The position numbers were made by a program, and so were the translations under genes. The notes below the pieces were generated by a model, which searched no databases, was not told the DNA's origin, and saw only the letters and a program-made list of their open reading frames with translations. Source: a virus. Taken from it: a stretch of DNA of 42,180 nucleotides. Below are positions 9,929 through 36,932 of this stretch, one piece after another. The stretch spans positions 1-42,180 of the IMG/VR virus record IMGVR_UViG_3300006026_000029. One strand, given 5' to 3'. Numbering within the stretch: position 1 is the stretch's first letter; each line of letters begins with the position of its first letter.

Positions 9929-11476
9929 TTAAACTAGAGGATCACTCAGATTGCTCTTCGTGACCACAATGTCAATCAAATCAGCCACGCCAGAAACACG
10001 CACACCAACAGTAGCTTTAACTAGACCAGTCGCAAGCTGCGAGTTGGGGTTGTTGGTGGCATTAACCGAAACCGTGTAACCCGGATCAATTTGTGCACCT
10101 TCAATATCAAACGCAGCATACAGACCATCCTGAAGAGCGATCGGCTGAAGGAAGTTCTTGATTGAAGAACGAATGTTTGCAAAGAGGTTGCCTCGTGCAT
10201 CAATCGTGGAGAAAACAAACCGTTCCATACGATCCTCAATACCGATCACAATGTAGTTCATTGTGTCCTGCTGAGTGATGTAACGCCAGTTGGTCTCATC
10301 GTTAGAAGCCGACCGGGCACCATACACACGGATTGAGTTATTTACCTTGCGGATAGCGTTGATTCTGGCCTTATCGAGAGTTTCAGCAGTGGTAGGAGTA
10401 ACGTCCTGATAAAGATCAGAAATGCCTACCGCTGAAGAAATCACACCGGCACCGGCACGCCACGGACCGCCCGCCGCATCAACCGCTTTAGCTCTAGCAG
10501 CCGCAGCGTAACTTTCCGGAGAAATGTTGATCGTGGAAGTCGTAACAGTTGACTCACCCGTCGCAAGCTCAGCAGAGTTAGGTGAAGTAACCTTAATGTG
10601 TGGCCAGTAGAAAGCCATGCACTTAGCGTTTGCGTCAGAGTAGTACGATGAAACGCTGGTCTTAGCCGTAGCTGACGAATCACCCAGGGTGAAAGCACAA
10701 AGGGCAATACGGTTGTTGTTAGCAGCGTGGGTACGCAAAGCGTCCCAAACCGCAGTACCAGTGTAACCCGGAGCTGCAACAGCGCCACTCTTAAGGTTCA
10801 CGCTGAAGCACGTTGACACATCCGGATCGGAATCGAATGTACCATCAAGCGCATCCACGATGTGATCCGCTGTGACTGCCGTACCATCTGACCCTCCAGA
10901 AAGGTTCGTGTCAGCAAGCGAATCTGGGTCATTCGATGAAGTTGCGTCGTCAGCAGCAACGATCAGATGACTGACCGTTGAAGAGTTGACGAACGAAACA
11001 GCATCATCAACATCCACAAGATCACGACTAGACAGAAGAAGTGTGCTATCTAGCGAAATCTTAAGCCGGAAATAACCGGAAAGAATGTTGCTGTCATCGC
11101 TGTTGTTCTCAACAGCGACAGAAAGGTTGTTGCCCCAAGCGCCCTTGTTCTTTGACGTAAGCGTCATAGTAGCAGAACCGCTTGAATCGTTCAACGTAAT
11201 CGAAGAAGTCGCCGCATCGTCCGCATCATAGTTGATCGCACGGAACACATAGCAACGAGAACCGCCCTCATCAAAGAAGGTCTTCACGTGGGAATACATA
11301 TTCCCTGACTGGTAGTTACCATAGTAGGTCGTGTAGTCGCTGAAGCTGCGAAGGAGCGTAGGCTCAGTCGTTGATCCACGCTCAGCAGTGCCAACCATAA
11401 ACACCTGTCCAGCCACATTGTTAGTAGTGCCCACAGGACCAGTACGCACTGCAGTGGTGACATTAACTCCCGGCAT
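9929..11476 (-). CDS. Contractile tail sheath protein
   Basis: 515 aa from ATG 11476. An in-frame ATG at 11488 lies within the ribosome site GGAGG and is therefore unlikely. The N-terminus MPGVNVTTAVRTGPVGTTNN and GQVFMVGTAERGSTTEPTLL (residues about 20-40) are typical of sheath proteins. Next comes FDEGGSRCYVFRA, then a domain-insertion region. The conserved C-terminal half includes VDAAGGPWRAGAG, RINAIRKVNNSIRVYGARSA, NYIVIGIEDRMERFVFSTID and a final strand that locks neighbouring subunits. The protein surrounds the tube and contracts during infection. It proves myovirus morphology. Two overlapping palindromes lie upstream. Confidence 0.95.
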   Translation of the reverse strand: MPGVNVTTAVRTGPVGTTNNVAGQVFMVGTAERGSTTEPTLLRSFSDYTTYYGNYQSGNMYSHVKTFFDEGGSRCYVFRAINYDADDAATSSITLNDSSGSATMTLTSKNKGAWGNNLSVAVENNSDDSNILSGYFRLKISLDSTLLLSSRDLVDVDDAVSFVNSSTVSHLIVAADDATSSNDPDSLADTNLSGGSDGTAVTADHIVDALDGTFDSDPDVSTCFSVNLKSGAVAAPGYTGTAVWDALRTHAANNNRIALCAFTLGDSSATAKTSVSSYYSDANAKCMAFYWPHIKVTSPNSAELATGESTVTTSTINISPESYAAAARAKAVDAAGGPWRAGAGVISSAVGISDLYQDVTPTTAETLDKARINAIRKVNNSIRVYGARSASNDETNWRYITQQDTMNYIVIGIEDRMERFVFSTIDARGNLFANIRSSIKNFLQPIALQDGLYAAFDIEGAQIDPGYTVSVNATNNPNSQLATGLVKATVGVRVSGVADLIDIVVTKSNLSDPLV

Positions 11477-11491
11477 AATTGCCTCCATATT

Positions 11492-11515
11492 ATTGTAGTT
11501 ACAATACTAGTATTG
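11492..11515. promoter_or_regulatory. Two overlapping palindromes upstream of the sheath gene
   Basis: CAATACTAGTATTG (11502-11515) is a perfect 14-base palindrome, and ATTGTAGTTACAAT (11492-11505) a second, sharing four bases with it. They lie 16-40 bases before the sheath start, so they could be an operator or mutually exclusive mRNA hairpins. A related CAATAG-CTATTG palindrome lies upstream of the capsid gene. Confidence 0.45.
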
Positions 11516-11609
11516 AACATGCCCTGCGGGGATACGCAAAGCGTACGCTCTATCAAATTTTATTTTACCATGCGAGAAGTAAAGTCGAGTGTAACTAACG
11601 TGACTACGG

Positions 11610-11825
11610 TCAAGAATCAGATTGTTTGTTTAACTTTTCACGTTCTTCTTCGATAACAGCATCCCAATCAACAGTTCCCTTGTCGTTTAAGGGAAGACTT
11701 GTGCGTTTCACAACCTCCGCATAACGGCTCAAAACCTGTTTCCGGTACTCAAGCACATCTTCACGAGTAGGGGCTACTGTGAGAGAATAGTCTCTTAGTT
11801 CTTCAAGTTCTTCTTCTGTACTCAT
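11610..11825 (-). CDS. Small charged protein of unknown function
   Basis: 71 aa, not recognised. It is acidic, very Glu-rich at the N-terminus (STEEELEELRDYS) and helical throughout (REDVLEYRKQVLSRYAEVVK). It begins four bases after the preceding 61-aa gene and precedes the sheath gene by 133 bases. No clear ribosome site precedes the ATG, so it is probably translated by coupling to the upstream gene. Similar small genes near the sheath are common in myophages, but no function can be given. Confidence 0.6.
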   Translation of the reverse strand: MSTEEELEELRDYSLTVAPTREDVLEYRKQVLSRYAEVVKRTSLPLNDKGTVDWDAVIEEEREKLNKQSDS

Positions 11826-11829
11826 ATCG

Positions 11830-12015
11830 TTAGTCTAACTCATCTAAGGTCGCAGCGGGGTCGCTGAGTAAAGAATTCTTTTTGCGAGACTTACCGTCGT
11901 CCCAAAAATCTTGACCAGTGCGTGCTTTACGGGTGTGCCGCAACCAATAATCACTTTGTTCCCTTATCTTAGGGTCTCTTAACAGCTCTCGCCACGTTTT
12001 AGCTGATGATCTCAT
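11830..12015 (-). CDS. Small basic protein of unknown function
   Basis: 61 aa, not recognised. It is rich in Arg, Lys and Trp (TWRELLRDPKIREQSDYWLR, then HTRKARTG) with an acidic end (ATLDELD). The last residues ATLDELD also occur inside the neighbouring 1950-aa protein (MTATLDELDTV, near residue 1560), which may be chance or a trace of shared origin. The ribosome site AAAGGA precedes the ATG at good spacing, and the gene starts 12 bases after the giant gene, so it belongs to the same transcript. Confidence 0.6.
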   Translation of the reverse strand: MRSSAKTWRELLRDPKIREQSDYWLRHTRKARTGQDFWDDGKSRKKNSLLSDPAATLDELD

Positions 12016-12027
12016 CTTTTATTCCTT

Positions 12028-15000
12028 TCAAGAAAATCTAGGCCACAAGCCCGTACTTAAATAAGCAAACACTGCTGCTTCCTTAATGTTGAAATTATAG
12101 CCGCCTTCAGGACGCTCCGATCTCCACGGCTTCAAAAGATCATTTGATAACCAGTTAACAGGTCTAGAGCTACCTAACACAACAATCTCAGATTCTTCAC
12201 CCTGACCTAAAGAACCAGTAGTAATACGAGGATTATCAAGATATCCGATACCCATAATAAGTTGAGCAGGAACCACATCATGCTGAAGAACGTGGGTAGG
12301 CTCACCCAGTTCACCAACCTCTGCCATCTGTTCTATCCTATCGTCAGCAGTACCATACTTATTGCCAGCAAACCCCAAAGCAATCCCTATGTCGGTACTC
12401 CACGACTCCAAACCGCGAGTCACAGATGGTTCACGTCCACTAGGAAGCCCGTCGTCATCCCCAACAACATTCGGGATGTAAGTACCTCTAAACACACTAA
12501 GTTCAGTAATACCCGCATCTTCCAAGTATTTCTGTGTTGTGGAATACTGACCTCTAACCCAAGCATCAATAAACGGTGTCAGAAGTTCTTGAATTTCAAA
12601 AATTTCTTCTATACCGGCATCAATCTCTGAGGGTTCATGAGAAACATCAATATCAAACTCTTCTCCCAAAACTGTTTTAACACGTTCAGATAAGAAGTCC
12701 CAATGGAACACTTCACTTCGCGCTTCACCCCAATGGATTTGAATAGCTTTAGCAATCCGACTCCCCACCCATGCTTCATTCTCAGTCACTTCTTTTTCAT
12801 ACTCTCTCATTTGTGAAGGAGTAAAACCAGTAGTATCTCGTTGACGTGAAGTAATTAAATCATTTATTGCAGCAAAAATTTCATACGTTGCATCAGTACG
12901 TTGTTTACCAGAAAGAGAACCACCAAGCTCAAACGCTTCCTCTAGCTTTTTCTGCAACGGCAACAAATCATCCTCAGTAGACAATTCCGCCACCACCGTT
13001 TTTAATGCTTTCTGATCTTCCCTTAAATGCACACCATCCACAACATCAGCCACAGGACGAGGCTTTCCTTCATGAATATCTGGAACAGAAGAGCCAGTCA
13101 AACGATCTTTATCCCAACCCGTCAGTTTTTCAGGCCCTGGAGGAAGCCCAAAATCTGGCGCAGACGAACGAACCGTATCCAACTCATCAAGCGTGGCAGT
13201 CATATCATCCACAATCGTGGGACGAGCTTCGCTTTGAACAATTTCTACAGCTTCAGGAATAGTACGCCACTCGCCCATTCCCGAAACCTGCCAACCGCGT
13301 GCCCCGTCAACTGACGGATTCACCGTAACGACACCAACTTCATTAGGGTCAAGATCAGCGTACGCCTGATAATTAGGAGTCCAAAACAGAGGGTCGGGAC
13401 GGTTCGGAACATTGTACTGCCGCCAATACGAATATTCTCTATAGAAATCTCCACGCTCTTCCATCGTAGACGGCGTAGCTGATAAAAGTCTCTTTCTCTC
13501 ATTTTCTGGCATGCTCTTAGTCCAGGCAGCGATCTCCGACTTCATTCGCTCCACGGCAGCTGGCCCCGTATCGTCACGGACAGCTTCACGCATTTCATGA
13601 ATACCACGAACGATCGAATCCGCAACCAACGGGTCAGTCGTAAAGCTAATAGCGTCGGATACGCCGCCGCCCAACCCTGCAGGAACTTCACCTGATTCGT
13701 CGCTTAACTGGGCACGAGTTTTAAACCCTCCATCTTGCAAACCACTCAAACCTGTAGTTACATGTAACAATCCTTGTGGAAGGTTTTCCCACATGCCTCT
13801 CTCAGCCCTAGCGGAATAACCATACCGCTGCCACGCCTCCGACCTCTCATCATTTTCAGTACCCCAAACCTCTCTAGGGTTACCTATGTCAATCTTATTT
13901 AGTACGATAGCCCGAGTGATTTCAGCTTGCCAAGCCTTTTCGATTTCACGCCTAACTGTCATAGCCGCATCAGCGTCATCCGATGGCAGGGCATCGTAAA
14001 CTGATCCAATATCAGCAAGGCCGGGTCGCTCATCTCTAGGCACGGGTAAACCATCATCAGCAATAACTTGCGTCTTAAACAACTCAGGACGCTCTCTCAA
14101 TAATTCAACACCACGCTCCCATGTTACCTTCCCCTCTTCAGTATAGCCGACAGGAGGAGGCCCAGGCACCCAAAAACCGCCATCATCAGTTTCGACAACA
14201 CCTCCCCCAGGAATCTCCGTAGACTCTGGAACGATATCATCAACCGACCGGGCCATAACCGAAGCCACTTCATCCTCAGCATCATCCAAATCATCAATCA
14301 TTTCAGAAACAGCATCATCCCGATCAGAACGCAACTGATCAGACAAACCACGCAACTCAGCCAAACGCTCCTTCTGCCGCAAAAACTCAGGAATCTTACC
14401 CTCATACTCGGCAAACTCTTCACGCTGACGCTCCAACCCCGCAACAGGATCAAGACCATCCAACGGCACATCATTCTCATCCATATAATCCAACAAACGC
14501 CACAACACCTGACCCGTCATCTCCGAATCAGCATCAGCCGTATGCCACGAGAAATCCTCCAACCCGAAAAACTCCTGCAACTTCTTCAACGAAGCACTAC
14601 CCGGACCATCCTCAACCCCAGCACGCTTAGCAATATTGCCCAAACCCATCGTGTCAAAATACGTCACCTCATCCAAATCAAACGACGGCACACCATCAGG
14701 ATCATGACGCTGACGCTCCAACTCCATACGCTTCAAATCAAACGCAGCATTATGCGCCATAAACACCACATCAGAACCATCAGAATCGCCATTAGCAAAA
14801 CGCATAAACTCCTGCAACACCGTAGGCATATCAGGCTGCTTCGCCAAAAACTCCGGAGACATAGGCTTACCATCAGCATCAATCAAATTCGCTTGAGACC
14901 AATCAGACAACTCATCATACTCCACATTCACATACATGGAGAAACGATCAACAATCACACCATCAACATAAACCACGCCACCCAACTGAACAATACGGTC

Positions 15001-17880
15001 CTCATCAACCTCATCCGGATCCATACGCCCAGCAGTCTCCGTATCAAAAACCACCACACGCTTACCCTTAAGAAGCTGCGACACCTCTCTCCACGAAGTC
15101 GCCTCAGCCAACTCATCACGCAAACCAGAACCAGCAAGATGCGGAGGAGGAGAGAACGGTGCCCACACCTTATCTACAAGAACACCATCTCTAAACAACT
15201 CAGGTTCGTCTACCTGTGCCTGAGCTAACTCGCCAAGAATTCTATTCTTCCGATCTTCCGACTCGGCATCAGAAAGCATTTGAGACGTGGCTGAAGGATC
15301 ACTCGCAACCCTAGGAAGCAAGCTGCCACGCTGCTTCCCCTGATCTACATCCCTCACCACTCGACGGGCTTCGTAAGTGGAGTAGGCAGTATCTGCTTCT
15401 TGTCTACCTGCCAAAGCAGTCAAAGGAGGAAGGTCGTCTTCAGACCAGTCACGGTCCGTCAAAATAAACTTAAGCTCCTCAGGAATAATCTGCTTCGAAT
15501 ACTTGTCAAACATCTGAGGAAGATTGCTTTCTTCTCCGTCTGTACCTGCCGGAATTCTTCGCCTTCCTGTAACGTGAGCCGAAATTACTTCCGCTAAAAC
15601 TTCCATGCTTTCAGTCCGCTCCATCCGCCTCTTGAGTAACGGATCTAAGCCGGGAGTGTTTTGTGAGACACCATACTTTATTTGAATATAATCATTAGGC
15701 GTATAACCCAAAATAGAAGATACGTAAGCATGGTCAGTGCTCCTCGTCCGTAATTCAAAATCTCTATTGTAAGTCTCAAGCCACGGCCTATTTTCACTTA
15801 TCCACTGTTGGGGAGCTTGACGAATAGGTGAATCATTTCTAAAAATGTAATCACCATTTCTTTCTTGTCTGTCAAGCTCACGAAGAGCTTCTTGCCTACG
15901 ACTTAACGTCTCTGTTAAAATAGTAACTCTACGAGCATTCTCAGGATCGTCTATCTGTTTCTGAATATTTTCGATCTCGCCCTCAAGACGTATCTTCTCT
16001 CTAAAGAAAGCATCTGCAGCCAACAAAGAATCAATCCGGTGAACCGCTTCATGCACAGCAACTTGGTCTAGAGGTGTTTCAGATAAGCCCACCTCCTGAA
16101 AATCATTACGCAACCTTCCAAGCGTAGCTAAACTCTTTAACCCCAAAGGAATATCTACACCATCAGGCCCATCATCAGGATTAAACCTCTTAATGGTACC
16201 GGCTTTCCGATCAATAACTAAATGCTCATCTAAGCCCAACATTTGCGGAGTGAGGACTAACACGCCAGTTGCAGAATTAAACGTACCACCAATTTTATTG
16301 TCATCAAGCAGTTCAATACGAAGTTCTGTTGGACGATACTCAGGACTTAGACCATCTGTAGACTTTCTAATTTTACGCAACAAATCTTCATTCTCTGCAC
16401 CGCCAGGAATGAAACGTAAAATGCCCTGCATTTTTTTATCTTTCAGGGTTTCCTCCGTAAACACGACTTTGATATCTTGTGGCTTAGTAACTTCTTTAAG
16501 CTCAGTTTTCAACTCAGCTAAACGTTCACGAAGCTGAGAAGCTAATGGATGTTCGCCGTCAGCCTCAAGTCTCTGAATTGCAATCTCACCTGTTTCAATG
16601 TCTCTCAAAACCTGACTAATAACATCAAAATTCTGATACTGTCCACTTAACTCACCGGCACGTTCAACTAACCGATTCTCAGGAATTATCCCCAAAGTAG
16701 AACTAAGCTCAGTAGCCTCATCAGCACGCCGTGCAGCTAAATCCGACTTTGCGCTAGCTACCGTCTGACCAATACTATCGCTACGACGCCTAAAAGCATG
16801 GCCTGTATAATATTCGTAATCTTTAAATCCGGCATTCTGTAAAAATAGCCTATCTATCAATTCGGGATTATCAGCCATGTACTGCAGCTGGTTTGCAAGA
16901 CCCAAATGGGTTTCAGTGCTGCCCGTAGAAGCTGTATTCCTATCTAACCAATCAGCATGGTAACGAACCTTATCAAAATCATCAGCAGCATAAGCATTAA
17001 TTAATTCTTTTATATGATGATCGTGCCAAGTCGTCACAGGCAACGCAGCGGCCATCGCTTGTAAGAACCGAACGTCATCCTCGTCAACTGTCTCGATCAT
17101 GTCTGCTACAGATCGCCTCCGTCTGCGTGCTTCATCTTCTAAAAACTTTAAGCGAGAACGAAAACGGCTAATAGATTGTCTATCGCCATCACGAAGCATA
17201 GCAGCCATACTTTCACCCAAAGTAAAGTTCGCATAGCGGTAAGAAGGAGACTCCCCGCTTCGGCCCGTAGGCTTGCCGTGTAACCGCTCTTCCATGTACT
17301 GAAACAGTGTGATGCGGTTACGACGCTCCGCAATATCTATTGCAGCTGCCCGCTTAACAGGAATATTATTTAAACCCCGTAGCCGATCTTGAGACGCTTG
17401 AGTTATTAAACCACTTTCAACAGCTTCATCCGATAAAAGGTACTCAATCTTCGGACGAAAAGCGGCAAGGGCAGCGGAACCTTTATCAGTTGACACATCC
17501 ACTACATCCACATCATCAACCGCATCATCAAAACGAGCCGACTCAGCCAACGACGGCCCCAAAACCCCACGAGGCAAAATGCCCTGAGACTCCAAAAGCG
17601 AAGGCGAATCATCAGCCAACGTCCCCAAAGATCCACCCAACGTAGTAGAATCAGTATCTCTAAACGACGGCGTAAAATCCCAAACAGACCCGTCAGCACG
17701 AACAAACTCTACACGACCACGATCAACCTGACCGTACTCGCTCCAAATCTCACCCGTATCAATAAAGCGCAAATACGCCCCTTTAGGGCGCTCCCAAATC
17801 GTTCCATCCTGAACAAGACCATCAAGGTCACCGTCACGAGGAAACGGCACAAAAGGTACAACACGAGGTTTCCTAGCCAT
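12028..17880 (-). CDS. Giant polyvalent-type protein: zincin, DEDDh exonuclease and ADP-ribosyltransferase
   Basis: 1950 aa. The N-terminus has an EF-hand/dockerin-like loop, RDGDLDGLVQDGT. Near residue 612, VAVHEAVHRID carries a zincin HExxH motif. Residues about 940-1130 form a complete DEDDh exonuclease: FDTETAG, AHNAAFD, and HTADAD (HxAxxD). Residues about 1370-1420 (LLHVTTGLSG, then SDAISFTTD) may be a second transferase-like domain. Near the C-terminus VFRGT (about 1797), SWSTD (about 1825) and GQGEESEI (about 1895) give the Arg, Ser-Thr and ExE signature of R-S-E ADP-ribosyltransferases. Long charged linkers join the parts. The family resembles polyvalent proteins thought to be injected with DNA. 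Its place between neck and sheath genes suggests a virion protein (inference). The start follows a TATAAT box by 7 bases and has no ribosome site. Confidence 0.8.
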   Translation of the reverse strand: MARKPRVVPFVPFPRDGDLDGLVQDGTIWERPKGAYLRFIDTGEIWSEYGQVDRGRVEFVRADGSVWDFTPSFRDTDSTTLGGSLGTLADDSPSLLESQGILPRGVLGPSLAESARFDDAVDDVDVVDVSTDKGSAALAAFRPKIEYLLSDEAVESGLITQASQDRLRGLNNIPVKRAAAIDIAERRNRITLFQYMEERLHGKPTGRSGESPSYRYANFTLGESMAAMLRDGDRQSISRFRSRLKFLEDEARRRRRSVADMIETVDEDDVRFLQAMAAALPVTTWHDHHIKELINAYAADDFDKVRYHADWLDRNTASTGSTETHLGLANQLQYMADNPELIDRLFLQNAGFKDYEYYTGHAFRRRSDSIGQTVASAKSDLAARRADEATELSSTLGIIPENRLVERAGELSGQYQNFDVISQVLRDIETGEIAIQRLEADGEHPLASQLRERLAELKTELKEVTKPQDIKVVFTEETLKDKKMQGILRFIPGGAENEDLLRKIRKSTDGLSPEYRPTELRIELLDDNKIGGTFNSATGVLVLTPQMLGLDEHLVIDRKAGTIKRFNPDDGPDGVDIPLGLKSLATLGRLRNDFQEVGLSETPLDQVAVHEAVHRIDSLLAADAFFREKIRLEGEIENIQKQIDDPENARRVTILTETLSRRQEALRELDRQERNGDYIFRNDSPIRQAPQQWISENRPWLETYNRDFELRTRSTDHAYVSSILGYTPNDYIQIKYGVSQNTPGLDPLLKRRMERTESMEVLAEVISAHVTGRRRIPAGTDGEESNLPQMFDKYSKQIIPEELKFILTDRDWSEDDLPPLTALAGRQEADTAYSTYEARRVVRDVDQGKQRGSLLPRVASDPSATSQMLSDAESEDRKNRILGELAQAQVDEPELFRDGVLVDKVWAPFSPPPHLAGSGLRDELAEATSWREVSQLLKGKRVVVFDTETAGRMDPDEVDEDRIVQLGGVVYVDGVIVDRFSMYVNVEYDELSDWSQANLIDADGKPMSPEFLAKQPDMPTVLQEFMRFANGDSDGSDVVFMAHNAAFDLKRMELERQRHDPDGVPSFDLDEVTYFDTMGLGNIAKRAGVEDGPGSASLKKLQEFFGLEDFSWHTADADSEMTGQVLWRLLDYMDENDVPLDGLDPVAGLERQREEFAEYEGKIPEFLRQKERLAELRGLSDQLRSDRDDAVSEMIDDLDDAEDEVASVMARSVDDIVPESTEIPGGGVVETDDGGFWVPGPPPVGYTEEGKVTWERGVELLRERPELFKTQVIADDGLPVPRDERPGLADIGSVYDALPSDDADAAMTVRREIEKAWQAEITRAIVLNKIDIGNPREVWGTENDERSEAWQRYGYSARAERGMWENLPQGLLHVTTGLSGLQDGGFKTRAQLSDESGEVPAGLGGGVSDAISFTTDPLVADSIVRGIHEMREAVRDDTGPAAVERMKSEIAAWTKSMPENERKRLLSATPSTMEERGDFYREYSYWRQYNVPNRPDPLFWTPNYQAYADLDPNEVGVVTVNPSVDGARGWQVSGMGEWRTIPEAVEIVQSEARPTIVDDMTATLDELDTVRSSAPDFGLPPGPEKLTGWDKDRLTGSSVPDIHEGKPRPVADVVDGVHLREDQKALKTVVAELSTEDDLLPLQKKLEEAFELGGSLSGKQRTDATYEIFAAINDLITSRQRDTTGFTPSQMREYEKEVTENEAWVGSRIAKAIQIHWGEARSEVFHWDFLSERVKTVLGEEFDIDVSHEPSEIDAGIEEIFEIQELLTPFIDAWVRGQYSTTQKYLEDAGITELSVFRGTYIPNVVGDDDGLPSGREPSVTRGLESWSTDIGIALGFAGNKYGTADDRIEQMAEVGELGEPTHVLQHDVVPAQLIMGIGYLDNPRITTGSLGQGEESEIVVLGSSRPVNWLSNDLLKPWRSERPEGGYNFNIKEAAVFAYLSTGLWPRFS

Positions 17881-17905: not shown

Positions 17906-18778
17906 CTACGAAGACGGCGTGACCTCTAACGAACTTGCAGAATATGCGCCAGTACCGCCAGCATTCAAAGCAGCCACCCGGAACTTGTAACCAGTCCCGT
18001 TCGTCAAACCAGTCACCCGATAGAAACCCTCGACCGAACTTGTATCGGCAACAGCAGTAGACCACGTGTCACCATCATCAGTGCTTTGCTGAATCTTGTA
18101 ACCAGTGATCTCATGAACACCACCATTCCACGTGGCCTCAAGCCAAGACAGCGTAACTTCAGTATCGCCCGCAACCGCTACAAGGTTTGTGGGGGCATTC
18201 GGAGTAGCCGCCATCTTTTCTACAGTAATCTCAGAGGACTGCATAGTGCCTAGTGCAGTGCGGGTCAGAGTTTCTTCAAGGGTCAAAGAGTAACCTATGT
18301 ATGACCCTGCCAGTAGTCGCTCACCTTTAATCAAAGTTAAATCAGAGAACTGCTCTACAATAGTCCCCTCATCAATCTTTGGCGAGCACGATACGTCAGT
18401 ATCGTAAGCAGAAAGCGAGGGATGATCCATCAATGCTTCACGAACAACAGTTGTCAAGTTATCTCGCTGATCGGTGACAGTCTGAGCACCCGCATCCCGA
18501 ACCCAAACATAGGTACGCATATCGTACACAACCTGCAAATCCGGATCAAACCCCGCCGTATAACCAGCTCGATTAATAGAATCAGTGCTCATGACAATAG
18601 TAATAATCGTCGGCCATCTATCAAGCTGAAACGGCTCATGGCTAACATACAAACGAGGATCAGGCAACTGACTGGCGCTCAGGTTCCAATGGTTCCTGTA
18701 AGCAACCAGCCTAGAAGGCAGATCTGCTGCTAAATAATTGGTAACAAACTGTTTAGCCAAACGGCTTCCACTCATCAT
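17906..18778 (-). CDS. Tail-completion-like neck protein with C-terminal fibronectin III domain
   Basis: 290 aa, ATG 18778 or the adjacent ATG 18775. Residues 1-190 resemble tail terminator/completion proteins in position and general pattern (LPSRLVAYRNHW, then DLQVVYDMRTYVWVRD and TTVVREALMDHPSLS), a group that caps the tail tube at the neck. Residues about 195-290 are a classic FN3 domain: PNAPTNLVAVAGDTEVTLSW, then ITGYKIQQSTDDG, YRVTGLTNGTGYKFRVAALN and SLEVTPSS. FN3 domains on phage particles are usually surface-exposed carbohydrate or cell-surface binders. Location after the gp10-like gene supports the neck assignment. The fusion is seen; the N-terminal family call is less certain. Confidence 0.7.
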   Translation of the reverse strand: MMSGSRLAKQFVTNYLAADLPSRLVAYRNHWNLSASQLPDPRLYVSHEPFQLDRWPTIITIVMSTDSINRAGYTAGFDPDLQVVYDMRTYVWVRDAGAQTVTDQRDNLTTVVREALMDHPSLSAYDTDVSCSPKIDEGTIVEQFSDLTLIKGERLLAGSYIGYSLTLEETLTRTALGTMQSSEITVEKMAATPNAPTNLVAVAGDTEVTLSWLEATWNGGVHEITGYKIQQSTDDGDTWSTAVADTSSVEGFYRVTGLTNGTGYKFRVAALNAGGTGAYSASSLEVTPSS

Positions 18779-22445: not shown

Positions 22446-24395
22446 TCATCTCACGGGACAACTTCCCGTTGAGCATTCGGCGTCAAACTCATCGTCCGAC
22501 ATGATCGTGGAACCTGACAGCTTCTCACCAAGCTGTGACGTAGTGCTGAGCACATGCTCGTACTCTTCCTTAGTCAACTCGCCCATCGGGGCCTGATCGA
22601 AACCATGCTCGCTGTGCAGCAAGAACGAAACGGACTTCATCTCGCTCCAATGCTCCGCAAGGTACTCACGAATACCATCAAGTTCTTCGCTCTTGTAGTA
22701 GACAGTCACCGAAATGGCGTTGTCTGACCACACCTTCTGGAGACGACGAACAAGGTCCATCTGCTCAATCGCAGTCATGTCCTTAGCTTCGATCGTCCCG
22801 TCAGGGAACGCACACGGGAACTCTACAACAACAGTCCGGTCATCTTCTGAGCCATCAAAGTTGCGGAGAGGCTCAACGTAGAAGCCCTTCGACTTGCAGT
22901 AGTTGACAAGAACGTCGGTGGAAGCCATACGCATACGCTTCACAAAGTACTGGCTAAAGCCGGGGTGAACGCCAGGGGTTACACCCGGAAGAAGGCTCAG
23001 CGTGCCAGAAGGCTTGATCGTGGTAAGACGTACAGACTCAGGCCAGCCACGCTCTTCTGACCACTCGGCATCAAACTCACGCAGAGCGACATAGGTGTCG
23101 TCCAGCCAATCAATCTTTTCCATGGCCTGCGTCACGCCAGTGATACCTAGGCCGAGACGCATGTTTGTTGACGTGATCTTGTCTGAAGCAGGGTCAAGGT
23201 AAGACAGCGCCGCTGTCGCCTTCTGGACCTTGTACAGCAACTGAGACACGTCCTGAAGCTCTTCCGACGAGTCAATCATCGGCAAGAAAATCTCAGACAA
23301 GTTACAAGACTCACGGTTAGCCAACGGGATTTCAGCGCAAGGGTTGACGCCCACAATCGACGGATCGGGACGCTCTTCGCCCATACGCCCAAACTGGCGT
23401 GAAGCTTCGAGGTTGAAGAACCCGTACGGCTCACCATTACCCTTGTAGCCTTCCCAAATAAGCTCCGGCATGTCCTGCATCTGTTCCGGAGAAACGAAAA
23501 CAGTGTTGTTTGACATGGCTCGCTCAATCGGAATATCGCCAAGGTCCCAACGCTTCGCCATCAGGTAATCTTCATCGTCTAGACGGCCAACAGCAATTTC
23601 AGCGCTGCGGCGAACGTTACCGGCGACAACGATAGAGCCAATGATGTTCATGCAGTCAAGAACCTCAACTGAAGTCATCGTGCGACCAACCGCACCGTCA
23701 AGAACGGCACAAATCTTCTCAATACCCGAAACGAGAATATCGGGACCTGAAGCAGTGCCGCCGAACGTCTTAATAGGTACACCCGCCTTGCGGATCAGGT
23801 GAGTAGCGTACGTCATCTTACGAGGATTGTCGTCGTCGCCCAAGTAGCACTCAAAGACCTTCCGGACTGCTTCGCCCCAACCCTCACGGGTATCAGGCAC
23901 TATGAAATCAGAATCGTCAGCGTCATGATGCTCAACCCAAGCTGAACGAACAACACCCAGACGCTCAGGCTTATCGCAAGAGAAGCCCACACCGCCGCCA
24001 AGCATCAGCCGCTCTACGGCCCAAGAAAAATCCGTGGGCTTCTGAACATCAACAAACCAGCAGTTGACCAGACTATCGCCACCCAAACGCTTGTTGTTCG
24101 GGGTACCCATCTGCCAAAGCATTCGGCCAGCAACGGAAGCCTTCAAGTTGAACAGATAGTCATAGAGGCGGACAGCCTCATCTTCCGACAACTGCGCCCC
24201 AATATCCTGAGCGCCGTTAACGACACGCTGAATCGTTTCGTGCCATTCCTCAGTACGAACAATTGTGTCGCCCTCAAAAATAGGGCGAGCATAGGTCCGC
24301 TTGTAAACAATATAGCCTAATCCGTTAAATCCCCACGGAGGCATCTTATCAGCATATGAGGCGGCATGGTCGTCGGAAATAAAAAAGGGGTCCAC
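22446..24395 (-). CDS. nrdJ: Adenosylcobalamin-dependent (class II) ribonucleotide reductase, monomeric RTPR type
   Basis: 649 aa, GTG start with AAGGAG eight bases before it. Reduces ribonucleotides to deoxyribonucleotides with coenzyme B12, oxygen-independently, supplying phage DNA synthesis. Key residues fit the Lactobacillus leichmannii enzyme: C353 in NPCAEIPL as thiyl-radical cysteine, N351 and E355 beside it, C112 (VNCWFV) and C364 (ESCNLSE) as the active-site disulfide pair, and C641/C646 (ECSTGSCPVR) as the C-terminal shuttle pair. Spacings of 11 (C353 to C364) and 5 (C641 to C646) equal those of that enzyme. At 649 aa it is somewhat shorter than the 739-aa prototype. It is intact with no intein, and sits unusually between capsid and neck genes. 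Confidence 0.95.
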   Translation of the reverse strand: MDPFFISDDHAASYADKMPPWGFNGLGYIVYKRTYARPIFEGDTIVRTEEWHETIQRVVNGAQDIGAQLSEDEAVRLYDYLFNLKASVAGRMLWQMGTPNNKRLGGDSLVNCWFVDVQKPTDFSWAVERLMLGGGVGFSCDKPERLGVVRSAWVEHHDADDSDFIVPDTREGWGEAVRKVFECYLGDDDNPRKMTYATHLIRKAGVPIKTFGGTASGPDILVSGIEKICAVLDGAVGRTMTSVEVLDCMNIIGSIVVAGNVRRSAEIAVGRLDDEDYLMAKRWDLGDIPIERAMSNNTVFVSPEQMQDMPELIWEGYKGNGEPYGFFNLEASRQFGRMGEERPDPSIVGVNPCAEIPLANRESCNLSEIFLPMIDSSEELQDVSQLLYKVQKATAALSYLDPASDKITSTNMRLGLGITGVTQAMEKIDWLDDTYVALREFDAEWSEERGWPESVRLTTIKPSGTLSLLPGVTPGVHPGFSQYFVKRMRMASTDVLVNYCKSKGFYVEPLRNFDGSEDDRTVVVEFPCAFPDGTIEAKDMTAIEQMDLVRRLQKVWSDNAISVTVYYKSEELDGIREYLAEHWSEMKSVSFLLHSEHGFDQAPMGELTKEEYEHVLSTTSQLGEKLSGSTIMSDDEFDAECSTGSCPVR

Positions 24396-26847: not shown

Positions 26848-28365
26848 TTACGATTTAGTTCTACGTGGATGCTTCTTAGGGAGAAGGTCATTATCGGTTG
26901 TATACTTAGGATTCGACGGTTTACCGCTAGACACGAGTTTCAAGAATGCGTTGACACGACCCATAGCCCACTGCTGACGACCCATCTTTGGGCGGTGAGT
27001 AGCCGAGAAAGCACCGGCACCTCTACGCCAAACAGCCTTAAGCATACCTAACGTCACCTTGCGTTCAGGCTTGTTACGCTTCTCCATCTTCTCATTATGC
27101 TCTTTGACCTTGTTTTTCAAGGAAGTCTCAACCGCAGCCGAAAGCTTAATCCCTCCACGGGTACTAGCCGCCGTTCCCGGCTTGTTTCGTCTAGACCCCC
27201 GGATACGTTCCGAAGGCTTCGCTGGCGTCTTAGGATCGTTTGGCCCATAACGTCTAGCTGCTTTTTGACGAGTCTTCCAATTCTCAGGAATCAACTCGGT
27301 GCGTCCTAAAGCCCTGGCACGCTTCATGATATGCTTTTTGGTAGCCTCACGATTCTTGCCCAAACCATAAGCCTGGATAGCGTTACGCAAATCCCCGACA
27401 TCCCGAATCGGGAACGAACCGTCAGGTAACGCCCAACCACGCTTCGCATACTCCATCCGGCGAGCACGCGTGTAGTAACGTTTTTCTTCAATTGAGTTAA
27501 ACGACTTTTCGGTACCTTCGACACGGGCAACAATATTCTTGGCCCATGTATATCCGGTATCGCCACCCCACAAAGCATGAGCAATTCTACCATTAGAAGG
27601 GAAACCTTTTTCACCCGGTCTAAACCCGTCAGCGTTTGCATCAGACTGATGTCTATCGAAAAACGCCTTCATCCTCTTTACAGTCTTGTACGGAAGATTC
27701 TTGCCATTCGCAATGTCCCTAGCACGAGCGATACCTACAGCAGTACCCCCACGTTTAAACTCTTTACGCCACGCCAATGCTCGCTTCGCTTCTTCTACCA
27801 TACCCTTCGTGGGGGTAAACGAATCAGAAGCCGTAACAGATTTAGCCGAAACCAAGCCACCACCCGGCAACGTCTCAATGCCTCGTGGCCCACGCTCACG
27901 AAGTTTTTCCCACGCACGTAAATCTGTAGCAACACGACGAGTTGGTCTTTGCAACCTCAAAACCGGTGAACCGCCGATACTCAAATGGCCGTGAGCCGCA
28001 TTGTAATCTTCAGGAGTCATGCACGGCGCCCAAACCCCTTGCCGGGTCTGATGCGCACCGGCACACCCCATCTTGCTTGCGGCCTGTTCTGCAGCTTCAC
28101 GAGTCGGGAACTTGTTCTTCCCTTTACCCTTCGCTTTCAACTCTAAAAAGTCGTAGAAGTTTTTCTTCTTCTGTTGCCGCTTCTTCCACTCACGAAAAGC
28201 AGGGTTACCGACCCGGATCAGCTTCTTCAGATCCTTAGGTGACTCACACGGACCCCAAGCATCGTCGCCCACTTTGTGTGCTCCCGAACAACCCAAAATC
28301 TTCGACAGCTCTTTTGCCATCTCTTCTGTAGGAACTGTCTGACCTTCCAAAGGATCTTTAGCCAT
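26848..28365 (-). CDS. Basic multidomain head-associated protein with two GCxGxH modules
   Basis: 505 aa from ATG 28365, chosen for AAGGA eight bases before it; an earlier in-frame start would overlap the upstream gene by 35 bases. Two copies of a small Cys/His module lie near residues 18-50 (ILGCSGAHKVGDDAWGPCES) and 88-122 (KMGCAGAHQTRQGVWAPCMT). Next comes a phage domain around GFRPGEKGFPSNGRIAHALW, then FPIRDVGDLRNAIQAYGLGK to KRARALGRTELIPENW, shared with the 630-aa protein. The C-terminal segment is VTLGMLKAVWRRGAGAFSAT, then WAMGRVNAFLKLVSSGKPSN. I recognise these as recurring, uncharacterised domains of phage head-region proteins. The protein is strongly basic, so an internal, DNA-contacting role is possible. 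Confidence 0.7.
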   Translation of the reverse strand: MAKDPLEGQTVPTEEMAKELSKILGCSGAHKVGDDAWGPCESPKDLKKLIRVGNPAFREWKKRQQKKKNFYDFLELKAKGKGKNKFPTREAAEQAASKMGCAGAHQTRQGVWAPCMTPEDYNAAHGHLSIGGSPVLRLQRPTRRVATDLRAWEKLRERGPRGIETLPGGGLVSAKSVTASDSFTPTKGMVEEAKRALAWRKEFKRGGTAVGIARARDIANGKNLPYKTVKRMKAFFDRHQSDANADGFRPGEKGFPSNGRIAHALWGGDTGYTWAKNIVARVEGTEKSFNSIEEKRYYTRARRMEYAKRGWALPDGSFPIRDVGDLRNAIQAYGLGKNREATKKHIMKRARALGRTELIPENWKTRQKAARRYGPNDPKTPAKPSERIRGSRRNKPGTAASTRGGIKLSAAVETSLKNKVKEHNEKMEKRNKPERKVTLGMLKAVWRRGAGAFSATHRPKMGRQQWAMGRVNAFLKLVSSGKPSNPKYTTDNDLLPKKHPRRTKS

Positions 28366-28369
28366 GTTA

Positions 28370-28945
28370 CTATCCTTGCTCTTCGCTAGGAACAACCCCG
28401 CCACTTAATTTGATAAAATCTTGAACATACTTAGGGTCTTTCTCTTTCTCGACCTTGTTAAGTATCGCATAACTATATTCTAGTATCTCTCGCTGCGTTG
28501 CATCGTCAATATCCGCTTCTGCACCGGGCATGTTGATATTAATACCCCACCCGAAAAATACAGCCTCCATAAAGGCATCAACATCGGCAGGAATAAGCAA
28601 GCCAGTGTTAGATGAAAAGAAAAAGATGTAATCTGCCAACTCGCCGTCAGACATGGCCTCAATGCGCTGCTTTGTTAACATCGCCTTAGCGTTGAACTCA
28701 TCAATAGCTGTGTACGCCTCAGAGTATTCTGACCTGTCAATCTCGGACAGCTCAGGAAAGAAGAACCTGAGGCGCTGCTCGGTGAACATGGGAGTATCAA
28801 TCTCACGAAGCTTCTCTATCTCAGCAAACACACGATCAACCTTGGCTTGACTGTGCATAGTTGAATGCGCCTCAGCAGACCGAGGATCCTGCACCCGAAT
28901 AATGACGAAAGCATCATCTGTCGTCTTGTAGTACGTCTCGTTCAT
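28370..28945 (-). CDS. Unknown acidic protein of the head module
   Basis: 191 aa, not recognised. It is acidic and mainly helical (QAKVDRVFAEIEKLREIDTP, then SEYSEAYTAIDEFNAKAMLT), with a hydrophobic, Phe-rich stretch at residues about 108-140 (ADYIFFFSSNTGLLIPADVD, then AVFFGWGININMPG). The start overlaps the preceding stop by four bases (ATGA) and the gene ends four bases before the next start, so it is tightly coupled. It could be a chaperone or small tail/head factor. The middle looks like the tail-chaperone-like helical proteins seen beside capsid genes, but I cannot support a call. Confidence 0.6.
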   Translation of the reverse strand: MNETYYKTTDDAFVIIRVQDPRSAEAHSTMHSQAKVDRVFAEIEKLREIDTPMFTEQRLRFFFPELSEIDRSEYSEAYTAIDEFNAKAMLTKQRIEAMSDGELADYIFFFSSNTGLLIPADVDAFMEAVFFGWGININMPGAEADIDDATQREILEYSYAILNKVEKEKDPKYVQDFIKLSGGVVPSEEQG

Positions 28946-29379: not shown

Positions 29380-31953
29380 TCACTTATCCAAATCAACTAA
29401 GAAGTCGCCAGGGTCACCATCAAAGATGGCAACATCTGGGACTTTCGCTCCAGCATACACTTCCTCGTACAGATTCCACAACGTGCGCCTATACCATTCT
29501 TCAGTTTGCTCTGTTTTAGGAATCCGCTCCATGGCCTCACGAAGACCTTCCATTACTTTAGCTTTTCTACGAGCATAATCCGTAGGATAATTCCACAGGC
29601 GGCGCTGCGCTTCCCACACAATAGACTGTACCTCACGAGGATTCAATCCATATTTCTCAGCTATCCGAATAGCTGCTTCCCTGGCTGCCCAATAGTTTCC
29701 ATTGAACCCGCCCGACCCCGGCTTTGGTTTAAACGAAGTCTTCATTATCTCATCGTTGGAACCAATAAGCATCAACAGAGATGCGTTAAAATGGTGCGTG
29801 TCTGCAGTCAAACTCTTGAACCTAGTATCGTTAGGATCAACAATGTTGTTATAGAAAGATCTAACTTTTGACTGCGTGCTCAAGTTATCAGTGATAAACC
29901 GCTGCACGAATTCCCCTGTACCCAAATCAGGATTCTCTTTATCTGCCTTAAGAATACGAGCAACTTTAGTCCAAGGATCATTTTCAGCATTAGCAGCATG
30001 AGAAGTAGTTCCCTTCGCTTTTTTCAAAACAAAAGAAAATGAGCCATCAGCGTTCGGAGACATTCCAACTTCTCGAATAACATCCCCATCCAAACCAAAC
30101 GATTCTGAAGCTTTTAGAACTTTACCCAAAACAATATCTGGCTGATCAGAAATTCTACCCGCCATATTTCCGCCCATAGACTCGACCCACTCGGCAGCTG
30201 TCGTGGTATTAAACACAGACAGTTCTTCTGTTAAGCGATCAACACGGGCCTGTGCCGTTTTAACTGAAGCTAAATGCTTTTTCGCTCTACTCTTCTTCTG
30301 TTTTAACTCGCTTAATCTTTTTTGAGCAGCCATCAACGAGTTTGCTTTTGTGGCAGCAGCGGACGCAAACATACGCTCCGCCACATCAGCCATAGGGGGA
30401 TCTTCTTTAAAAATCCTAACAGCATTAATTGCCGAAGGTACATTGCGCTCCCAGGAAGTACCAGCAGACAAAACCGCCATTGCTGCTGCAGCGGTCTCTA
30501 CCCGCACGCCATGCTTATCAGCCGTATTGTTAGCCAAACGATTAGCCGCATCATACCAAACCTGCGTAAGTCTAGCATCATCAGTCAAATTGCCATCAGC
30601 ATCAACCATGCTTCCACGCCGCATAGTTTCTTCAAGATTAGCCTCCATGTGACCAATCACCCAATCAAGCTTCTCCTCATCAGAAGCATCAGGACCAATT
30701 CCAGCATTCTCCATCAAATCATTTAGATGCGGATAGCCTTTAAAAATATCCGCAACAATAGACTTGCGTTCAGCATCAGTAACATCAGCAAGACGTTGAG
30801 TCTCTGCAGCAACTCTGGGAGTAGCACCCGGATTTCCTACGACAACACCCGCACGTTCTCTAGCCGCATCACCACGAAGCAAACCAACAATCTCATCCGC
30901 ATCAGCCTGCCTCAAAGTAATAAGCCGATCCGTAACAGAATCCTGCTTACCACGCATCGTATCATAATCCGAAGTAGGTAAACGACCAGTATCAGCCATA
31001 AACCGTTTAACCCCAACAGAGTTACCCTGCTCCGACAACTCCGCAACCAACGAAGTAACCGACGCCGCAACCTCATCAGCACGGCCATCATCCAAACGGC
31101 GACGCAACTCAACAACAGCAGGATGATTCGACTCAGAAGCCTTTTCAAGGAAATCAGCAAGCGCCTCTTGATCTCTCAAATTCACGCCATCAACCAAAAC
31201 ACCCGAATGCGAAACCGGATGCAAACTCATCCCATCATCATCCGAAGAACCCATAATGTCCAAAGGACTCCGAGACGGATTAGACAAAACAAAATCCATC
31301 AAAGCCAAACGAACCACATCATCAGTATCCGCCTGTGACACACTCATCTCCGGACGCAAATCACGAGTATCCCCAACCACAACCGAATCAGGCATCTCCA
31401 TCAAAACCGCAAACGAACCATTCTCCCCAACGTTACTAGCCACACGCATACGGCCCTGAGCAAAACCAAACTCCTCAGCAACACGAGAAGCCAAAATCTC
31501 TACACGGCCAGCATCTTCCAAAGCATCCTCACCATCATGATGCTTCAAACCATACACCACGCCAGTAGACGTATCCCGAAACTTCAACATACCGTCCGGA
31601 GTTGTACGATCCGCAATAACCTCAAACCGGCCACCACCATCAGCAATATCCCGAACAATCGTTTCACCTAAAAACTCGTCAGGCACCGCAGACAACGAAC
31701 CGCCATCAACAACATGATAAACCGCCGACTCAACATCACCAATCGACGTATTTCCGTTCTCTCTACTAACAACCGTGGGCGCACCAGTAACCACACGCTT
31801 CGGATCAAGATCAGAACGATAATCTGGATTATACCGCTGCGCCACACCATTAGGGGTACGTGGACGAGTAGGATGAACTTCGCAGAACATCTTCTCAGCA
31901 ATCTGTTCAATTATTTTGTTAGTAATAAAACTCTGTGTAGAAAAATCAGACAT
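29380..31953 (-). CDS. Kinase-like domain (catalytic residues lost) fused to a glycosylase-like domain
   Basis: 857 aa. Residues about 125-255 resemble the HipA/PI4K-like kinases of actinophage proteins: GVVYGLKHHD (ATP-lysine region, about 136), EILASRVAEEFGF, and the catalytic-loop region MDFVLSNPSRSPLDIMGS (about 221) and HPVSHSGVLVDG. Where active members have NTDRHxxN and a metal-binding Asp, this protein has Ser or Asp substitutions, so it is probably a pseudokinase. Residues about 460-790 match a phage domain (I believe DUF7178; unverified): WYDAANRLANN, AMAVLSAGTSWERN, KVRSFYNNI, LTADTHHFN, VQSIVWEAQRRLW. Its LSAGT and ADTH spacing recalls HhH-GPD DNA glycosylases. A coiled coil lies between. 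It is placed among head genes, so possibly an injected protein. Confidence 0.65.
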   Translation of the reverse strand: MSDFSTQSFITNKIIEQIAEKMFCEVHPTRPRTPNGVAQRYNPDYRSDLDPKRVVTGAPTVVSRENGNTSIGDVESAVYHVVDGGSLSAVPDEFLGETIVRDIADGGGRFEVIADRTTPDGMLKFRDTSTGVVYGLKHHDGEDALEDAGRVEILASRVAEEFGFAQGRMRVASNVGENGSFAVLMEMPDSVVVGDTRDLRPEMSVSQADTDDVVRLALMDFVLSNPSRSPLDIMGSSDDDGMSLHPVSHSGVLVDGVNLRDQEALADFLEKASESNHPAVVELRRRLDDGRADEVAASVTSLVAELSEQGNSVGVKRFMADTGRLPTSDYDTMRGKQDSVTDRLITLRQADADEIVGLLRGDAARERAGVVVGNPGATPRVAAETQRLADVTDAERKSIVADIFKGYPHLNDLMENAGIGPDASDEEKLDWVIGHMEANLEETMRRGSMVDADGNLTDDARLTQVWYDAANRLANNTADKHGVRVETAAAAMAVLSAGTSWERNVPSAINAVRIFKEDPPMADVAERMFASAAATKANSLMAAQKRLSELKQKKSRAKKHLASVKTAQARVDRLTEELSVFNTTTAAEWVESMGGNMAGRISDQPDIVLGKVLKASESFGLDGDVIREVGMSPNADGSFSFVLKKAKGTTSHAANAENDPWTKVARILKADKENPDLGTGEFVQRFITDNLSTQSKVRSFYNNIVDPNDTRFKSLTADTHHFNASLLMLIGSNDEIMKTSFKPKPGSGGFNGNYWAAREAAIRIAEKYGLNPREVQSIVWEAQRRLWNYPTDYARRKAKVMEGLREAMERIPKTEQTEEWYRRTLWNLYEEVYAGAKVPDVAIFDGDPGDFLVDLDK

Positions 31954-36763: not shown

Positions 36764-36932
36764 CAGAAGCCTTTCCATCGTCCAAGGGAACGTACTCTAC
36801 AAGCACATCATCCTGATAAAAGTATTTTACCGTATCTTTGTGCCAACTATCGCCTACAACAGCATTGCTGCCTACATTAAATAATGCCTCATTTGCCTGA
36901 CTGATCACTTGCTCTAAGCGAGCGGGTCTCAT
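36750..36932 (-). CDS. Small protein of unknown function
   Basis: 60 aa from ATG 36932, with AAGGGG nine bases before it; a TTG at 36941 is an alternative. Sequence begins MRPARLEQVISQANEALFNV and contains KYFYQDDVLVEYVPLDDG, a likely beta hairpin with an acidic tail. It overlaps the start of the giant gene by about 11-14 bases and follows the 630-aa gene by 20 bases. No family recognised. Confidence 0.55.
   Translation of the reverse strand: MRPARLEQVISQANEALFNVGSNAVVGDSWHKDTVKYFYQDDVLVEYVPLDDGKASDDGN

Follow-up and report, generated by a model that had tools for sequence, protein, structure and literature searches.

The window analysed here (the whole stretch of DNA, that is, the complete IMG/VR virus record IMGVR_UViG_3300006026_000029 of 42180 bases) carries, between the neck genes and the tail sheath gene of a phage, a giant gene whose product, P0001, is best explained as a phage polyvalent effector polyprotein, probably delivered by the virion. 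We give this reading, in which loading into the virion and delivery into the host are inferred, a probability of about 0.6. Several features of the gene are established: it encodes a DEDDh exonuclease among units that form a mosaic between relatives, it keeps a constant N-terminal tag and a constant HExxH motif, it shares a joint peptide with small cistrons and it lies in a defined slot.

12028..17880, minus strand: giant gene (protein P0001), probable modular effector polyprotein; open reading frame (ORF) with an ATG start, 1950 amino acids (aa), one match in its own record

A preliminary description made from the letters of this DNA had placed a 1950-residue protein at these positions, among neck and sheath genes, and had read a zincin, a DEDDh exonuclease and a C-terminal ADP-ribosyltransferase (ART) in it. 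It does not mention the tag, the joint peptide, the two small cistrons or the possible second ART-like unit described below. Its coordinates and length are correct, the strand, which it did not state, being minus, and the location is borne out by profile matches of the sheath (phrog_23, 5.5e-36) and of a Neck1 protein (phrog_26, 4.1e-17). On the minus strand, the genes follow each other in the order portal, prohead protease, large proteins, capsid protein, B12-dependent-type ribonucleotide reductase, neck genes, 290-aa gene, giant gene, sheath, tube (by position), endolysin and tape measure. The phage is therefore contractile-tailed.

A mosaic of units in a constant slot

The IMG/VR relatives correspond to eight genotypes: the window (with the near-identical L002-L005 and L007), L006, L008 (with L010 and L021), L009, L011, L015, L017 and L022. 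Contig ends truncate the giant genes in L009 and L022, so that the counts of complete copies cover six genotypes (window, 1950 aa; L006, 2657; L008, 1612; L011, 2656; L015, 2888; L017, about 2280). The tag, or a variant of it, and the HExxH motif are found in all six, the window included. The exonuclease is carried by four of them (not by L015 and L017) and a unit with the arginine, serine and glutamate motifs of some ARTs in order (R-S-E unit) by five (not by L008; L015 has two).

At the DNA level, the window and L006 are 99% identical over the tag, 64% over the region of the zincin and 98% over the exonuclease; homology ends at residue 1195, and the R-S-E units share 56%. Four nearby genes are 75-96% identical. 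The N-terminal half of L009 is unrelated to that of the window or barely alignable with it and the R-S-E units are 97% identical; in L008, the exonuclease and the units that follow it reach 87-92%, for 68-73% in nearby genes. As some segments are more alike and others less alike than the flanks, the units are exchanged.

The giant gene lies between the 290-aa gene and the sheath gene in all six genotypes that show both flanks (window, L006, L008, L011, L015 and L017, the last with a partial sheath gene); L009 shows the downstream flank alone and L022 the upstream flank alone.

17906..18778, minus strand: 290-aa upstream neighbour, tail-terminator-like by position only; matches phrog_5178, of unknown function; order kept in relatives
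9929..11488, minus strand: tail sheath, bounding the slot on its downstream side

In the distant isolate Cantare, a single small gene separates the corresponding flanks, and the ART and HExxH genes of phage GMA6 sit elsewhere. The slot and the fused form of the gene are therefore seen so far only in this environmental group.

The N-terminal tag

17665..17880, minus strand: N-terminal tag module DGDLDGLVQDGTIWERP, residues 1-72; near-identical in relatives, with its DNA pattern in 70 viral contigs

The tag shows 94-100% aa identity to its counterparts in L006, L011 and L008 and 90% to that of L022, for 42-55% in the next module. It reads DxDxDG...VQDGTxWERP; L015 and L017 carry the variant VQEGTIWERP with an altered upstream loop, which is missed by the exact DNA pattern. 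This pattern, written for DGxVQDGTxWE, retrieved the 70 viral contigs, 69 loci being examined (L026 was excluded); these include several copies of the same phages as well as the family described here. The tag is C-terminal in 33 of these loci, N-terminal in 32 (7 of which are cut in 3') and located in cut ORFs in 4, and 34 distinct 21-residue cores were found among them. Beyond the searched pattern, an aspartate at position -4 and an arginine at position +11 are found in all 22 distinct contexts and an aspartate at position -2 in 21 of them. We take the DxDxDG loop to be EF-hand/Excalibur-like. Of eight tagged proteins, seven align with the terminal part of phrog_7924, a family of unknown function (E from 4.5e-6 to 0.042).

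The tag heads large effector-like proteins, namely those of this family and a 692-aa protein with two GxGIY repeats, ART-like by eye and devoid of any Pfam match (L054). It is internal to a 3343-aa protein that also has pentapeptide repeats and a Fic domain (3.6e-9) and whose gene is next to a second tagged ORF (L024). As it is also found on small proteins, one of them with an apparent membrane helix, the tag is not specific to effectors.

Enzyme-like units

14470..15063, minus strand: DEDDh 3'-5' exonuclease, residues 940-1137; PF00929, phrog_192 and PDB 2p1j, with 98% nucleotide identity to L006 and L011

The exonuclease of the preliminary description is confirmed by PF00929 (6.6e-11 at residues 943-1125, 43.5 bits for a cut-off of 24), by phrog_192 (1.2e-22), by the PolC exonuclease 2p1j (E 1.3e-4) and by the presence of all the catalytic residues (D946, E948, D1048, H1113 and D1118). 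It thus has the DEDDh family profile and residues in common with PolC/DnaQ-type exonucleases but differs from them in being an optional unit of a giant virion-region protein. Its proposed role as a weapon against host DNA is no more than a possibility: the unit is absent from two of the six complete copies, it resembles proofreading exonucleases, and its substrate could be phage DNA, host DNA or RNA.

15556..16413, minus strand: predicted zincin-like metallopeptidase, residues 490-775; HEAVHRID, invariant catalytic columns, low-confidence model
16030..16053, minus strand: HEAVHRID, residues 610-617; motif in the translation
16681..17664, minus strand: helical region of unknown function, residues 73-400; AlphaFold helices, 42-55% aa identity to relatives

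For the zincin, the motif and its conservation stand, whereas Pfam and PDB profiles lend no support and the model is of low confidence. HExxHxxD is present in all six complete copies. H610, E611, H614 and D617 are invariant in seven aligned rows, two of which are merely 23-24% identical, and HExxHxxD arose in 12 of 3000 shuffled sequences (HExxH in 92 of 3000). A candidate for the downstream glutamate of zincins, E764, is present in five of the seven rows as aligned. The AlphaFold model of the N-terminal half places a helix, strands and the HExxH helix in the order expected for a zincin, at low confidence. The zincin region has no Pfam match, including MPTase-PolyVal searched against P0001, and no match among PDB profiles. 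In the helical region that precedes it, the local predicted local distance difference test (pLDDT) score is 60-86 in parts and much lower elsewhere.

12151..12543, minus strand: R-S-E ADP-ribosyltransferase-like unit, residues 1780-1910; R1798, S1826, E1896/E1898, without independent fold or profile support
13216..13785, minus strand: possible second ART-like unit (LLHVTTGL...GLGGG...ISFTTD, H1373), residues 1366-1555; motif by eye only
13882..14199, minus strand: small domain of unknown fold, residues 1228-1333; common to L008 and L009, local AlphaFold pLDDT 61-87

As for the C-terminal ART, the arginine, serine and glutamates are in order and conserved, as had been described, but similarity to known ARTs in fold or profile was not found. 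R1798, S1826-W and E1896-x-E1898 are invariant in seven of seven rows from six genotypes, rows that are not independent (that of L009 is 97% the same), and they are kept in an eighth row, a protein of the more distant phage G012 with 21% identity. The unit, whose activity is putative, is named ART-like here and is not classed as a member of the R-S-E ARTs, because a loose R-S-E pattern is common in shuffled sequences and all the profile tests failed. A stricter pattern was found in none of 3000 shuffles, but it was written after the sequence had been seen.

Residues 1366-1555, with 83-85% aa identity to L008 and L009, may resemble an H-type ART, a weak assignment made by eye from the motif; they have no match in Pfam, PDB profiles or annotated phages. 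A further unit, carried by L006 and L015, matches KptA/Tpt1 and PARP below the Pfam cut-offs (5e-5 and 0.026 with the isolated L006 unit). Cellular relatives of the R-S-E unit were found neither in 395 genomes of one class (that of Aquihabitans) nor in a genome-contig scan. With the second ART-like unit, matches were obtained in 4 of 390 genomes (E 3.8e-4 to 4e-3) and were rejected as chance, their loci showing unrelated or wrong-frame proteins.

The joint peptide and the small cistrons

11830..12015, minus strand: small cistron 1, 61 aa, with the C-terminal end NSLLSDPAATLDELD; ORF between the giant gene and the sheath gene
11610..11825, minus strand: small cistron 2, 71 aa (MSTEEELEE...KQSDS); ORF between the giant gene and the sheath gene
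15262..15312, minus strand: possible zincin-exonuclease joint SDPSATSQMLSDA, residues 857-873; weak, score 26 for a shuffle maximum of 28
14236..14313, minus strand: joint between the exonuclease and the next unit, residues 1190-1215; L006/L011 homology ends at 1195, seed score not above shuffles
13132..13218, minus strand: joint TIVDDMTATLDELD...FGLPPGP, residues 1555-1583; score 42 for a maximum of 28, L008 homology ends at 1584

In L006, L009, L011, L015 and L017, one or two small ORFs have a variant of the peptide SDPAATLDELD at their C-terminal end, and a peptide of the form (S/A)DPAA(T/S)(L/I)D(D/E) stands at some internal joints of the giant proteins. When joints were scored with seeds taken from the small cistrons only, each protein being compared with 20 shuffles of itself, the peptide exceeded the shuffle maximum (in brackets) at least once in all five giant proteins tested: window, 42 (28) at residue 1555; L006, 40 (30); L011, 40 (29); L008, 65 and 42 (30); L009, 41, 40 and 37 (32). 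The L008 counterpart of the 857-873 joint scores 30, which equals its shuffle maximum. The 1190-1215 joint aligns with strong joints of L006, L009 and L015, and residues 1169-1225 match joint regions of L006 (E 4.6e-4) and L015. Furthermore, homology between relatives breaks at residues 1195, about 1203 and 1584, at joints or adjoining them. The window, G001, G002 and G004 were scanned for the peptide (score of at least 36) with seeds that included two internal copies, G004 being covered to 60 of its 65.9 kb, short of its giant gene. For the window, G001 and G002, all the occurrences found lie in the giant gene or in the small cistrons that follow it.

Compared with the cistron copy, the internal copies of the peptide have 15-24 of 42 bases and 3-8 of 14 residues in common, so that a role as DNA recombination site is unsupported. 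In the adjoining FGLPPGP stretch, 19-20 of 21 bases are the same in seven copies, and exchange at the DNA level is therefore possible there. The tail of the L008 protein is identical to the cistron tail in 41 of 42 bases; here, the two have been fused and the R-S-E unit has been lost.

Of the two versions of cistron 1, one is found in the window and L009, which have R-S-E units with 97% identity, and the other in L006, L011, L015 and L017. As these versions follow the version of the R-S-E unit, cistron 1 may be linked to this unit or encode its partner. Cistron 2 does not track it.

Relationship with polyvalent proteins and other phage effectors

The resemblance to polyvalent proteins that had been proposed for P0001 is supported by its multi-unit architecture, its location among virion genes, the aspartate after HExxH and tag variants in G012. 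In the main text of Iyer et al. 2017 (PMC5512222), delivery by the virion and processing by the zincin are predicted for polyvalent proteins, packaging is assumed for phage ones whose genes adjoin virion genes, an aspartate three residues after HExxH marks a phage-type metallopeptidase clade, and Alt/VIP2 ARTs are stated not to be found in genuine polyvalent proteins. P0001 likewise combines several disparate enzyme-like domains in one polypeptide (the exonuclease by profile, the zincin and the ART by motif and conservation only), it has a zincin-like HExxH with Asp at +3, and its gene has neck genes upstream and the sheath gene downstream. It differs from the 2017 description, as given in that main text, by its exonuclease ('DEDD' and 'DnaQ' are absent there and 'exonuclease' appears in a reference only), by its R-S-E-type motif, and by its tag and its joint peptide, which are not known to be described there. 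Among the main texts of openly licensed PMC papers, no description of the combination of exonuclease and R-S-E unit or of the tag letters was found. A 2022 paper (literature drawn on: PMC9503650, PMC7824862) reports MuF fusions of Alt/VIP2 ARTs, for which packaging is predicted.

The G012 locus is the strongest evidence for the probable place of the giant gene in the polyvalent arsenal. Three ORFs follow one another there (539, 981 and at least 1282 aa), each with the tag, or with a closely similar version of it, in roughly the N-terminal 140 residues; the first ORF matches the profile of the R-S-E unit (E 4.7e-4) and the two others have HExxH motifs. The preceding gene encodes a 2741-aa protein with MPTase-PolyVal (5.7e-37), ArdC-N (1.1e-29), a zeta toxin (1.1e-9), pentapeptide repeats and DUF3721. 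Besides P0001, three proteins of the window have partial matches in G012.

P0001 has the order of the R-S-E motif in common with Alt of phage T4, a packaged R-S-E ART, as well as a late gene near virion genes, the two being compared by motif. Alt presumably differs in not being fused to a zincin or an exonuclease. It is injected with the DNA, whereas ModA and ModB are ARTs that are not injected (PMC5512222, main text).

The distantly related contractile-tailed actinophages GMA6 and Cantare, as well as Gordonia phages with VIP2-like ARTs, are also among the nearest known systems. An ART (GMA6 gp13, PF03496, 2.1e-11) and HExxH proteins (GMA6 gp14, Cantare gp11) are encoded in the structural region. 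However, the ART and HExxH genes of GMA6 are separate and lie between the portal and capsid genes, not before the sheath gene, the ART profile of GMA6 and the Gordonia phages is unrelated to P0001 by hhalign, and the GMA6 and Cantare proteins have a different short motif in common, seen by eye. This motif, like VR[DT]AEYWGxPVGTPI, is repeated in gp13 and gp14 of GMA6 (L034) and gp11 and gp12 of Cantare (L035), mostly near their start; it is present in ART, HExxH and neighbouring proteins and is perhaps an analogous tag.

Proposed mechanism and alternatives

According to the preferred reading, the polyprotein, with its constant N-terminal tag and HExxH motif followed by exchangeable units (exonuclease, R-S-E ART-like unit and others), would be made late, together with the virion, into which the tag would serve to load it. 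The putative zincin would cut it, possibly by self-cleavage, at the joints, and the units would enter a new host with the DNA. In this host, the exonuclease would act on nucleic acid and the ART-like units would modify host proteins, as T4 Alt does. A more detailed version, in which SDPAATLDELD is the mature C-terminus of the units, exposed by a zincin cut just behind it, and in which the tag directs cargo, be it the polyprotein or individual proteins, to the virion (its neck or tail tube, perhaps, and not its head), is tentative and itself rather doubtful. Under this version, phages could swap warheads by exchange of units and delivery would not need to re-evolve.

Polyvalent proteins are a largely predicted class for which few rules of loading and processing are known. 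The family is a natural experiment in unit swapping that offers two testable signals, a portable tag and a joint peptide common to the units of the polyprotein and to separate cistrons; if the preferred reading is right, the loading and release of cargo would become a question for simple peptide-mapping and tagging experiments.

Various results weigh against this reading. The slot adjoins tail genes and not head genes. Mosaicism extends beyond the giant gene: identity is down to 41-43% for the Neck1-like protein of L006, L015 and L017, and to 49-65% for the tape measure of L006, L009 and L011. In tblastn searches of annotated phages, the whole of P0001 is unmatched (E <= 1e-5), as is the tag (E <= 1, a search in which very short queries may be missed); the tag consensus, the 1607-aa protein of the window (see below) and the second ART-like unit were likewise unmatched. 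AlphaFold yielded two poor models (mean pLDDT 46 and 50, with alignments of eight and seven rows), so that the modelling proposed with the preliminary description established neither the zincin nor the ART fold, and Foldseek returned nothing at E <= 0.001 with the model of the N-terminal half. Shuffling produces the loose R-S-E pattern in 210 of 3000 cases (7%) for the C-terminal 311 aa and in 991 of 3000 for the entire protein. The R-S-E unit is recognized neither by Pfam (no ART family with any of seven members) nor by PDB profiles or hhalign; against five rows of phage VIP2-like/ART sequences, 27 of 30 column-shuffled controls outscored the real rows. Of the three presumed joints of P0001, a single one beats shuffles by itself, the 857 and 1204 segments failing to do so, and an extra unit of L009 (its residues 866-1062) has no joint. 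Finally, of 46 tag-bearing records searched with the profile of the R-S-E unit, G012 alone gave a match outside the family (the 41 further records gave none), and this match is marginal by itself, since chance cellular matches reached E 3.8e-4.

Among the alternatives, the one that survives best, although it is unlikely, is a late host-takeover or anti-competitor protein that acts in the producing cell and is never packaged. Packaging of P0001 is itself a deduction, T4 ModA and ModB, unlike Alt, are not injected (PMC5512222, main text), and the small cistrons directly behind the giant gene could encode partners; however, the gene lies within the structural run in all six genotypes with both flanks, a context in which polyvalent proteins are held to be packaged by the same source.

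It is improbable that P0001 is a structural neck, collar or tail protein that acquired enzyme-like domains for adsorption or wall penetration. Its position between neck and sheath genes would suit such a role, as would the tag, which is also carried by small proteins, one with an apparent membrane helix, and whose DxDxDG loop we assume to be like Ca-binding extracellular loops. Yet units of several hundred residues have been gained or lost while the 290-aa protein and the sheath stay 68-93% identical, and the Cantare flanks do without anything larger than one small gene.

Much the same low likelihood is given to a genuine exonuclease accompanied by chance zincin and ART motifs in a fast-evolving protein. 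The frequency of the loose R-S-E pattern in shuffles and the lack of profile matches for both units are what this would predict, but the catalytic columns are invariant down to 21-24% identity, HExxHxxD is rare in shuffles (12 of 3000) and another unit of relatives approaches KptA and PARP below the Pfam cut-offs (5e-5 and 0.026).

Least probable of all is a polymorphic-toxin-like locus with exchangeable toxin units and a small downstream cistron for a partner or immunity protein, which unit swapping, the small downstream cistrons and the association of cistron 1 versions with R-S-E versions (or simple linkage) would fit. However, an immunity protein would not be expected to carry the joint peptide of the giant protein, as cistron 1 does; cistron 2 shows no such association with the R-S-E unit, and no secretion or Rhs-type domain is found by Pfam.

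Host and other features of the locus

The host is probably actinobacterial, because of the neighbours of the portal and the ranking of RecA matches. The closest relatives of the window portal are from Brevibacterium and Gordonia phages (at most 43% identity over 68% of the length). Among the matches listed for the RecA of a relative, Aquihabitans and other Acidimicrobiia/Actinomycetota are at the top (68-70%), with Cellulomonas at 71% and other phyla at 65-69%. Near the recA gene in the record of a relative (L122, 3221-5740) lies a gene for an 839-aa threonine-rich (PTTTTTT) protein.

The window has no tRNA gene and no Rfam match at the gathering score, and its promoter and terminator scans are close to chance (12 for 13.5 expected and 12 for 8.9 expected, respectively).

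11489..11600, minus strand: conserved leader that precedes the sheath gene and contains the palindrome CAATACTAGTATTG at 11502-11515; largely invariant in seven loci

This palindrome occurs once in the window and is a possible regulatory site. The gene of the B12-dependent-type ribonucleotide reductase (22446-24395) lies within the structural gene run.

Two other large proteins of the window are candidates for further polyvalent-type proteins: one of 1607 aa (31955-36778), parts of which match large proteins of L024, L025 and G012, and one of 857 aa (29380-31953), parts of which match G012 and which has DUF7178 (1e-18). Three head-region proteins (26848-28404, 36953-38845 and 38876-40453), including the C-terminus of the prohead protease, carry a short CxGxH...PC motif, which Pfam identifies as DUF3721 in both proteins scanned, in one of them below the cut-off. 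DUF3721 is also found twice in the polyvalent protein of G012, and this motif is possibly another sorting tag.

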